Both the position numbers and the translations under genes were made by a program. DNA of 22,889 bases from positions 1 through 22,889 of the IMG/VR virus record IMGVR_UViG_3300033148_010416, one strand, 5' to 3'. The notes below the pieces were generated by a model that saw nothing but the letters and a program-made list of their open reading frames with translations, ran no database searches and had not been told where the DNA came from. Below, piece by piece: positions 4,641 through 13,236 of the stretch. This DNA comes from a virus. Numbering within the stretch: position 1 is the stretch's first letter; the number at the start of each line of letters is the position of its first letter.

Positions 4641-4840
4641 TCATCCACTCCACAAGCATTTAGGAATTGCTGCCGATTAAAATTTGGTGTTTGCGTGGCG
4701 AAGTAGTCAGCCAATTCACAGGCAATCGAGGTGGACAAATCATATCGTCCTGCTGTATAATAATCACCGTCGCAGTCTTCCAGTGCTGGCCGTTCTGCTT
4801 TTAGTATTTTTGCTATAGCTTTACAGTCTTGTTCGTTCAT
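4637..4840 (-). CDS. Small protein, paralogue of the 4238-4405 product
   Basis: 67 residues, MNEQDCKAIAKILKAERPAL... through 'STSIACELADYFATQTPNF' to 'NRQQFLNACGVDE'. The last 17 residues resemble the 55-aa protein encoded downstream. The pattern 'IA..LA.YF....P.F.R..F..AC' is familiar from small phage proteins but I cannot name a function. ATG at 4840 overlaps the stop of the 43-aa ORF as ATGA and has AGAGGG about 8 bases upstream. Confidence 0.8.
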   Translation of the reverse strand: MNEQDCKAIAKILKAERPALEDCDGDYYTAGRYDLSTSIACELADYFATQTPNFNRQQFLNACGVDE

Positions 4841-10244: not shown

Positions 10245-10439
10245 ATGGATAAAATAACGAAAAATGACTTATGGCTGAAAGTGCTGCTTGGTCTGATTAT
10301 TACACTGGTTGTGGCAGGCTTTTCGTACATAGAAACCCGCAAACTCGATAAGGCAGTTTTTGAATTGCATAGAGAAAATGTCACCAAGCAGTTAGATCGA
10401 ATCGAAAGAGGTGTAGAAAAACTTATGCAGGGGCCGTAA
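10245..10439 (+). CDS. Small one-helix membrane protein
   Basis: 64 residues from ATG 10245, which follows GGAAAGGGG. The N-terminal 12 residues are polar (MDKITKNDLWLK), a membrane segment follows (VLLGLIITLVVAGFSYI, about 13-29), then a charged helix (ENVTKQLDRIERGVEKLMQ). The layout recalls small holin-like or XhlA-like proteins in reverse order, but nothing proves lysis function and the place, between portal and scaffold, is unusual for a holin. It could also be a virion membrane protein. Confidence 0.75.
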   Translation: MDKITKNDLWLKVLLGLIITLVVAGFSYIETRKLDKAVFELHRENVTKQLDRIERGVEKLMQGP

Positions 10440-10446
10440 GAAGTAA

Positions 10447-10556
10447 AGCCAAAAGAAAAACGGGCACAGCCGGGTCGCTCCCGGCGAGATGCTCATACCA
10501 TCGAGCCTGTATGAGAGGCTGTTGGGTTAATCCTGACAGCCTCTTTTCTTTTGGTT
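10447..10556 (+). ncRNA. Candidate structured RNA between portal and capsid genes
   Basis: The 141-base gap between 10440 and 10580, the largest in the right arm, folds by eye into a closed multi-branch structure. P1 pairs 10447-10459 with 10544-10556 (13 bp, one G-U). P2 pairs 10469-10474 with 10480-10485 (GCCGGG/CCCGGC, 5-base loop). P3 pairs 10492-10498 with 10509-10515 (CTCATAC/GTATGAG, 10-base loop). P4 pairs 10516-10526 with 10532-10542 (11 bp, two wobbles, loop TTAAT). P3 and P4 abut and could stack. The arm lengths and loops do not fit a tRNA. P4 followed by TTTTCTTTT also works as an intrinsic terminator. Function unknown; no conservation has been tested. Confidence 0.45.
10514..10552 (+). 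terminator. Possible intrinsic terminator (P4 hairpin)
   Basis: A stem of 13 bp (10514-10526 with 10532-10544, including two wobble pairs) with loop TTAAT, followed by the T-rich run TTTTCTTTT. It would sit between the portal/membrane-protein genes and the scaffold/capsid genes and could separate or modulate their expression. Confidence 0.55.
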
Positions 10557-10580
10557 GGATTGAATTTGTGGAGCTTTGAA

Positions 10581-10952
10581 ATGCCAACTTATTGTTTCAG
10601 ATGTCCTGAATGCGGACACGCGGAAAGTGAGGTTAGGCCGATGTCGAAAGCCCGCTGCAAAAAACGCTGCGGCAATTGCGGTGCAGTTTCGAACCGTGAT
10701 ATGAGAGCGGAGCATTGTAATTTTAAGAATTGTGCAGGCAATTGGCCTATGGAATCTGATGCTGCCGGTGTCGATGTTTCGCAGGCTGACGAAGCAGCCG
10801 CCCACGCTAAGGCTATTGGTGTGCCTACTGAATTTAATCCGCAAACCGGCAATCCGGTTTTTACAAGCCGCAACCACCGCAAAAGGTATTGCGAGGCGGT
10901 CGGTTTGTATGACCGCAACGGCGGATACGGTGATCCGCAGAAACAGAGCTGA
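10581..10952 (+). CDS. FmdB-type zinc-ribbon phage protein
   Basis: 123 residues from ATG 10581, which follows GGAG by 7 bases. The N-terminus 'MPTYCFRCPECGHAESEV' with Cys8/11 and then Cys30/33 ('CGNCG') is the FmdB-type zinc ribbon. A second part has 'HCNFKNCAGNWPMESDAAGV', then 'AHAKAIGVPTEFNPQTGNPV', and 'TSRNHRKRYCEAVGLYDRNG' near the end. This two-part layout recurs in phage head gene clusters next to the portal and scaffold genes, from recall. The role in assembly is unknown. The open frame extends to 10551 without an SD. Confidence 0.82.
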   Translation: MPTYCFRCPECGHAESEVRPMSKARCKKRCGNCGAVSNRDMRAEHCNFKNCAGNWPMESDAAGVDVSQADEAAAHAKAIGVPTEFNPQTGNPVFTSRNHRKRYCEAVGLYDRNGGYGDPQKQS

Positions 10953-11178: not shown

Positions 11179-12171
11179 ATGACTACCGAAAATCAAACCC
11201 AAACTGAAACAGAGGACGTTAAAACCGAAGATACTCGAACCGATGACCAAAAGTTAAAGGACCAATACGATTATGATGATTCGGCAGGCAGTGATGATTT
11301 GCCTGACGATGAAAAGGGCAAAGGCGATGACAAGGATTCCGCCGATGACCAAAAAGCTGCCGATGGTACTGCCGGCAGTGAAAAAGAGCAGCAAGATTCT
11401 GAAACAGAGCAAAAGCCTGTTATCAGTGACGAACTTCTTGAGCGTGCTGAAAAGATGGGCTTTACCAGATATGAGGCTCAATCTTTCAGTAACGCCGAGG
11501 ACCTGAAAAGGACTTTGGACATTCTCGATGGGGCGGACGCAAGAGCCGGCGGCGAAGATAAAGAAAAGACCGGTGAAGAAGATTTGCAAAAAGGGCCTGG
11601 CTTTAAGATTGATCTCAATCCCGATGAGTATGATGCAAAGGTCATCAAGACTTTTGAGGACCTAAACAAATTCCATACGGACAGGTACACGGCTCTTGAA
11701 GCGAAACTCAATGATGTTTTAGAGGCCGTAGGTAACGAGCAGGCCGCAGCAGCGGATTTGCGGTTCGAGTCTATGATTGATGGTTTGGGTGAGGACTTCA
11801 CAGATACGCTTGGCAAAGGCCCCGGCCATAGTCTTAACCGCAAAAGTCCACAGTTTGAAAACCGCGTAAAACTTCACGAAGAAATTGTCCGCATTGCAGC
11901 CGGTTATGCAGCTTTGGGCCAGCGGGTGCCTGCGGAAAAGGAACTGTTTGAACAAGCAGTTGGAACGGTTTTTAAGGACAAACAAAAAGACCTTGCGATG
12001 GATAAGCTCGGCAAAAAACTCGACAAGCGGAGCAGGCAGAGTCTTGGCCGGGCTGCACCACACAAGGATAAGGAATTATCGCCGGATCAACGGGCCGTCA
12101 AATTCGTTAATGATTTCTACAAAAAGAACAACATCGATCTTGGTGAAGGCTCGGACGAGACGTACTTCTAA
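11179..12171 (+). CDS. Probable scaffolding protein
   Basis: 330 residues with an ideal SD (AAAGGAG). The first 85 residues are extremely acidic and low in complexity (DSAGSDDLPDDEKGKGDD, then KDSADDQKAADGTAGSEKEQ), followed by 'LLERAEKMGFTRYEAQSFS', a long helical charged part and a C-terminus with a basic stretch and an acidic end. A highly charged, helical protein of this length immediately before the major capsid gene is typical of the scaffold that guides head assembly and is then removed. No protease motif is visible. Confidence 0.8.
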   Translation: MTTENQTQTETEDVKTEDTRTDDQKLKDQYDYDDSAGSDDLPDDEKGKGDDKDSADDQKAADGTAGSEKEQQDSETEQKPVISDELLERAEKMGFTRYEAQSFSNAEDLKRTLDILDGADARAGGEDKEKTGEEDLQKGPGFKIDLNPDEYDAKVIKTFEDLNKFHTDRYTALEAKLNDVLEAVGNEQAAAADLRFESMIDGLGEDFTDTLGKGPGHSLNRKSPQFENRVKLHEEIVRIAAGYAALGQRVPAEKELFEQAVGTVFKDKQKDLAMDKLGKKLDKRSRQSLGRAAPHKDKELSPDQRAVKFVNDFYKKNNIDLGEGSDETYF

Positions 12172-12201: not shown

Positions 12202-13236
12202 ATGGAACTAACTGATTCTCAAATAAAAGATTTGATGCTCGGCACGCTCAATGAGCTTGGCCGAGGTCGATTCACGCAGATTGCTCAGGAATTGCAGGAG
12301 TATGAAGTTATGAGCAACCTGCTCAAAAAGGAAAAAGTGATATTCGATAGTGGTAAAGGCATACAGCGTACCATTATGACAAAAGTTGGCGGTACTTTCC
12401 GTCACGTTGGCCTGCATAGTCAGGATGAGGTCAACATTTCCGATCTGCTTGATAAGATTAACATTACCTGGAAACACGGTACGGCTTATTGGGCCTGGGA
12501 ACGCCGGGAGATGCTGGAGAACCGCGGCAAGGCCCTGATCGTCAATATCATCAAACCCAGACGCGCTGCTGCCATGATCGATATCGCTCAGGGTATGGAA
12601 GAAGCGTTTTTTGCTGCACCTGATCCATCTGACAAGCTTGTTCCCTACGGTATCAAATACTGGATTGTCAAAAATTCAACTCTTGGTTTTAACGGTGGTA
12701 ATCCTACAGGTTTTGGCAACTGCGCCGGTATTGATTCTGACGAGGTGCCGGCGTGGAAAAACTACACGGGTGAATACACCGACATTTCGAAGCTCGATTT
12801 GGTTAAGAAGCTGCGAAAAGCTCATCGCAAAACCAACTGGAAGTCACCTGTAACTATTCAGGATTTTCGTGGTGCAATGGGCCAGAAGCGCCGTCTTTAT
12901 GTCAACGAAGAAACTCTGTCCGACATAGAAGATTTGGGCGAGGCTCAAAACGAGAATCTTGGTCGTGACATTGCCAGTATGGATGATCAGATTGTGTTTA
13001 AGAAACACCCGATTGTTTGGGTCCCCTACCTTGATGACGACAGTACCAACCCGGTTTATATGATCGACCGCTCGACTTTCTATCCTGTAATTCTCAAGGG
13101 CGATTATATGCGTGAAACCGAGCCGGAGAAAGCACCGAAGCAGCACAACACTTTCGTTATCTACGTTGACATTACCTACAACTATCTGTGCATCGACCGC
13201 CGCCGCAACGCCGTGTTTAGTTTGGCCGCCGCATAG
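12202..13236 (+). CDS. Major capsid protein
   Basis: 344 residues from ATG 12202, which follows AAAGGAA; the reading frame opens earlier but no good start is there. The order scaffold-capsid and the size fit. The sequence begins MELTDSQIKDLMLGTLNELG and mixes helices and strands without low-complexity parts. Features are 'AWERREMLENRGKALIVNII', 'KPRRAAAMIDIAQGMEEAFF' and a beta-rich end 'HNTFVIYVDITYNYLCIDRR'. It is presumed to have an HK97-type fold, but sequence alone does not show that. Expected to be the most abundant virion protein. Confidence 0.8.
   Translation: MELTDSQIKDLMLGTLNELGRGRFTQIAQELQEYEVMSNLLKKEKVIFDSGKGIQRTIMTKVGGTFRHVGLHSQDEVNISDLLDKINITWKHGTAYWAWERREMLENRGKALIVNIIKPRRAAAMIDIAQGMEEAFFAAPDPSDKLVPYGIKYWIVKNSTLGFNGGNPTGFGNCAGIDSDEVPAWKNYTGEYTDISKLDLVKKLRKAHRKTNWKSPVTIQDFRGAMGQKRRLYVNEETLSDIEDLGEAQNENLGRDIASMDDQIVFKKHPIVWVPYLDDDSTNPVYMIDRSTFYPVILKGDYMRETEPEKAPKQHNTFVIYVDITYNYLCIDRRRNAVFSLAAA

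Follow-up and report, generated by a model that had tools for sequence, protein, structure and literature searches.

A pseudoknotted three-way-junction RNA followed by a terminator-like hairpin in the virion operon of uncultivated phages

Results

The window, i.e. the whole stretch of 22,889 nt that was analysed (IMG/VR record IMGVR_UViG_3300033148_010416), carries a virion operon whose largest gap spans positions 10440–10580 (141 bases). As the first-pass annotation had described, this gap separates the gene for a one-helix membrane protein (10245–10439) from an FmdB-type zinc-ribbon gene located directly downstream (10581–10952, + strand; PF09723, E 7e-7, under the curated cut-off; phrog_1076). 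Then follow a putative scaffold gene (11179–12171, + strand), which is assigned by position and acidic composition only and for which PHROGs supplies no name, and the major capsid gene (12202–13236). The left arm contains a serine recombinase gene with Resolvase and Recombinase domains on the – strand (459–1151).

For the + strand of positions 10431–10571 a minimum free energy (MFE) of -59.9 kcal/mol was computed, compared to -40.4 (sd 3.8) for 200 dinucleotide shuffles (z -5.1). The RNA element itself extends from 10447 to 10556 on the + strand, and a homologous element is found in the nearest relative, contig L002, and in at least 20 more contigs. It is practically certain that the gap RNA is a conserved structured RNA. 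The four helices proposed for it by the first-pass annotation are all present at 10447–10556; the pseudoknot and the junction had been overlooked, leaving the topology incomplete.

All parts of the core are on the + strand. The MFE fold contains a helix P2 of 6 bp (10460–10465/10505–10510, counted with the pseudoknot open), which had not been listed before. Its 5' strand GGGC (10462–10465) pairs with the 3' strand GCCU (10505–10508), and in the relatives all four of these pairs have changed on both sides, with P2 being 96.4% paired in 22 sequences. P2 encloses two hairpins. The first, P3 (10469–10485, stems 10469–10474/10480–10485, loop GUCGCUC), corresponds to the previously noted 6-bp hairpin, and its six pairs all covary. 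The second, Pa (GAUG-CUCAUAC-CAUC, 10488–10502, stems 10488–10491/10499–10502), has 4 bp in the window and was absent from the earlier list; it is 100% paired among the members and covaries in 5 of 5 pairs. Its loop (10492–10498) is complementary to the strand GUAUGAG at 10509–10515 over 7 bp, all of which covary (swap test 0/5000). The pairing between CUCAUAC and GUAUGAG, formerly read as a 7-bp hairpin abutting an 11-bp one, is hence real, and it is the stem of a pseudoknot rather than an ordinary hairpin because its 5' strand is the Pa loop. Since the Pa loop supplies a pseudoknot strand and Pa itself lies inside P2, the element combines a pseudoknotted three-way junction with a terminator. 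The window's copy shows all defining features of the core, namely the P2-P3-Pa three-way junction, the Pa-loop pseudoknot and a terminator-like hairpin directly after.

This hairpin, P4 (10513–10545, stems 10513–10526/10532–10545, + strand), was obtained from both the MFE fold and a terminator scan and has 11 bp with the pseudoknot closed and 14 with the pseudoknot open. No other site in the right arm is as strongly terminator-like as P4 alone with its 14 pairs, which would suit a plain terminator, or a hairpin for RNase processing, whose upstream structure is incidental. We consider this very improbable: P2, P3, Pa and the pseudoknot covary across 22 contigs, and homologues were recovered by a model of the core from which P4 had been left out. 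The earlier view that the gap holds more than a plain terminator is supported by the compensatory changes in the homologous gaps.

P4 is followed by a U-tract in the region UUCUUUUGG (10546–10556, + strand), which in the MFE fold doubles as the 3' strand of a closing helix P1. The 5' strand of P1, in the region CCAAAAGAAAA (10447–10457, + strand), is mostly an A-run opposite this U-tract, with CCAAAAG against CUUUUGG. P1 is the weakest part of the structure: it shows no compensatory change and is kept in L002 and L074 only. A ribosomal frameshift site was rejected, as the A-run is not retained in L002, and so was a leader peptide, the 13-codon frame from the ATG at 10489 being stopped after two codons in the same relative.

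The portal protein of L002 is 93% identical to that of the window, and L002 has the corresponding gap. All differences between the two in paired regions keep the pairing: one G-C pair is replaced by U-A in P3, one C-G pair by U-A in P4, and two pairs are changed in the pseudoknot stem. One further replacement, C-G by U-G, is permitted only in an RNA of the + strand.

For a broader comparison, 22 members were parsed by hand, and each parsed string was verified as a contiguous substring of its source. Standard pairs make up 99.1% of the 425 cells in 22 base pairs, compared to 65.7% in shuffled data (0/500), and every one of the 22 base pairs has changes on both sides among the 22 sequences. The number of compensatory cells is 136 versus 38.6 shuffled, and the covariation score 0.743 versus 0.188 (0/500); when the partner is slid by one column, pairing falls to 47%. 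The pseudoknot loop pairs with its own strand at a mean of 6.14, compared to 3.67 with the strands of other members (0/5000 permutations). These shuffle counts are not strict probabilities because the sequences are related and the hand alignment was made knowing the structure. In the aligned sequences pairing is kept despite differences at nearly every stem position, for which chance is no explanation.

Relatives were collected via terminase, portal, capsid and FmdB proteins (for portal-bearing contigs, the best 80 of 484), and their gaps were read for a shared plan. The core is present in at least 22 distinct uncultivated phage contigs (24 counting two close variants), which are related through their terminase, portal and capsid genes, and every copy has a terminator-like hairpin as its end. 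A covariance model of P2-P3-Pa, R2, was trained on six members. Among the untrained members it matched L272 (E 4e-5), L168 (0.0025), L163 (0.003), L289 (0.008), L295 (0.016), L170 (0.037) and L005 (0.055), as well as L194 weakly, each time on the coding strand and at the same place in the operon; L261 was recovered by a further model, R3 (E 0.005). The window reaches 35.9 bits with R2, though it is part of the training set. Seven members (L180, L181, L173, L260, L263, L266 and L268) were identified by a structural descriptor or by eye and are weak (L260, E 0.73) or missed with R2 and R3, so that the member set is partly a judgement. Scanning with the descriptor alone yielded equal numbers of matches on both strands and is too loose; an additional terminator requirement made it better, with chance matches still remaining. 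Model matches in L191 (in need of a 35-nt insertion) and in L062 and L220 (both taken for coding sequence) were judged by inspection to be due to chance. Nine other terminator-like matches near scaffold starts are without the element, and most of them lie inside coding sequence.

The relatives drawn from genome collections are contigs of Phycisphaerae, other planctomycetes and some other phyla. According to a rough census many related phages are without the element, which therefore is dispensable. Searching the collection for relatives of the capsid protein gave none in any named phage. A different structured element was seen in the terminase-portal gaps of three contigs (L023:6961–7086, L077:893–1012 and L093:2565–2669); its parts are a common 5' strand (near AUAUCGCGGG), one hairpin, one terminator and, after the U-tract, a CCCGC strand, and neither Pa nor a pseudoknot was seen.

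Rfam 15, searched in both modes, gave no family at or above the gathering threshold in the window, and for eight member loci it returned nothing but a tRNA next to the element. Together with the absence of any tRNA or tmRNA in the window according to ARAGORN, this agrees with the initial impression that neither a tRNA nor a known family is present. The sub-threshold matches include McaS (24.4, cut-off 42) and DUF3800-I (18.6, cut-off 44.2); the weak matches inspected in the window and the members were rejected as driven by the terminator. In L163 a tRNA-Met gene (4743–4817) is located directly upstream of the element. Literature searches returned no description of such an element. It is a folded RNA uncatalogued until now, and two dozen or more different uncultivated phages carry it.

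The genomic position of the element is largely shared. Most members have an acidic ORF directly after the element, the putative scaffold gene, which ends just before the capsid gene; this is in line with the suggestion of the first-pass annotation that scaffold and capsid expression might be controlled here, while direct support is absent for the packaging-RNA or processing roles it had also named. The FmdB-type gene takes this place in the window, L002 and L194, and the putative scaffold gene of the window lies two genes downstream of the element.

Most members have a further hairpin, P0, upstream. Its 5' arm is complementary to the terminator 3' arm as well, over roughly 15 bp in L219, 11 bp in L289 and 12 bp in L181 as judged by eye. 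Pairing of the terminator 3' arm with the upstream strand, an antiterminator-like 1:4 arrangement, reaches -22.4 kcal/mol, compared to -15.2 with permuted partners (minimum -18.2; 0/5000). A 2:3-type antiterminator gave a weaker signal than 1:4 and was rejected. A second competing helix, X, can form in most relatives between the stretch that includes the P2 3' strand and the next gene's Shine-Dalgarno region (mean -12.6 kcal/mol versus -8.4 permuted, minimum -10.6; 0/5000). Complementarity for mutually exclusive folds is present in most relatives and absent from the window: neither competing helix exceeds permuted partners in the window, L002 and L074, where P1 takes their place, and the window's own partners rank 13 and 7 of 22. 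These three show only the core, the terminator and the closing helix P1. At L272:2440–2700 a whole second element appears to be nested in the remains of an outer one, of which P0, the terminator 3' arm and the Shine-Dalgarno complement are kept and the core is gone.

Discussion

Taken together, the covariation of the core, the competing strands, the position at the scaffold gene, P4 and the lack of an Rfam family lead us to favour, as moderately probable, a cis-acting leader switch for the capsid-assembly genes. Termination, read-through, access of the ribosome and a ligand are what we infer from these features. The folded core would favour the terminator and keep the ribosome site open, and refolding would result in read-through or in a shut ribosome site. 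Scaffold and capsid expression might become tuned in this way, probably by a ligand, e.g. a capsid-assembly protein. Such a switch is less probable for the window's copy because both competing helices are absent and the FmdB-type gene comes next; in the subtype of the window, L002 and L074 the element is probably an attenuator that is partly read through.

A stand-alone small RNA gene acting in trans, for instance in capsid assembly or DNA packaging, has to be weighed against this. Its product would be compact, made by the terminator, closed by P1 or P0 and possibly a dimer through the P3 loops. The strong 3' hairpin and the closing helix would fit, and so would the P3 loops, of which 21 of 24 include a palindromic tetramer, compared to 8.1 after shuffling (maximum 17; 0/5000). 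Five tetramers (AGCU, CAUG, GAUC, CGCG and GGCC) occur in one fixed register, with different ones in the close relatives L192 and L229, and these palindromes suggest loop-loop dimers; palindromes are found in 4 of 22 Pa loops. Moreover, 10 of 22 members have an exact TTGACA in the 160 nt that precede the core, placed immediately before P0 in L260, L263, L266 and L268. However, a plausible -10 box follows only in some members (L185, L261) and many sites are without one; there is no promoter signal upstream of the window's element (p 0.9), and the P3 loop lacks the palindrome in the window (CGCU), L002 and L219. Pairing of helix X to a Shine-Dalgarno region is sensible only in cis. We therefore find a trans-acting RNA rather doubtful. 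In L048, near 10287, TTGACA is followed by a short hairpin terminator and then the scaffold start, without the core.

The anatomy of a junction plus pseudoknot on a platform with a terminator or Shine-Dalgarno site is typical of riboswitches, and the element could have been borrowed from host-like regulation as a sensor of a metabolite. This appears quite unlikely: no convincing copy precedes host genes, and in a set of 392 genomes from the planctomycete phylum the one convincing copy was that of the prophage in G005, the other three matches (L306–L308) being rejected for want of the pseudoknot; nor is there an Rfam match.

A more speculative and rather improbable reading is a phage-specific assembly sensor. 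Free capsid-assembly protein would bind the pseudoknotted core, two leaders would kiss via the palindromic P3 loop, and synthesis of scaffold and capsid would go down or up with the assembly state. If true, this would be a class of RNA switch dedicated to virion assembly. A structured RNA class tied to the capsid-assembly genes of a large uncultivated phage clade would give a handle on unequal expression of late genes within one operon and on how scaffold levels match assembly.

Several known systems resemble the element in part. Ribosomal-protein leader attenuators, such as the L20 leader (RF00558), are autoregulated by the encoded protein and likewise place a pseudoknotted or junction RNA, then a terminator, before the controlled gene. 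Here, however, the genes are phage capsid genes, and there is no kinship in sequence or model to L20_leader (in L289, 15.5 bits versus a cut-off of 58.7, with the terminator accounting for the match). The scaffold gene of phage P22 is autoregulated post-transcriptionally, again a control point at the scaffold gene in the capsid module of a short-tailed phage; to our knowledge, an RNA structure of this kind is not known there. The phi29 pRNA is also a small phage RNA with potential for loop-loop pairing, but its architecture is different, no Rfam pRNA match is found in the window, and the element described here lies inside a coding operon, mostly with a helix competing for the ribosome site. 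Finally, put of phage HK022 is a cis RNA that influences read-through and consists of two hairpins without a terminator of their own, whereas here the terminator and the antiterminator-like strands belong to the element.
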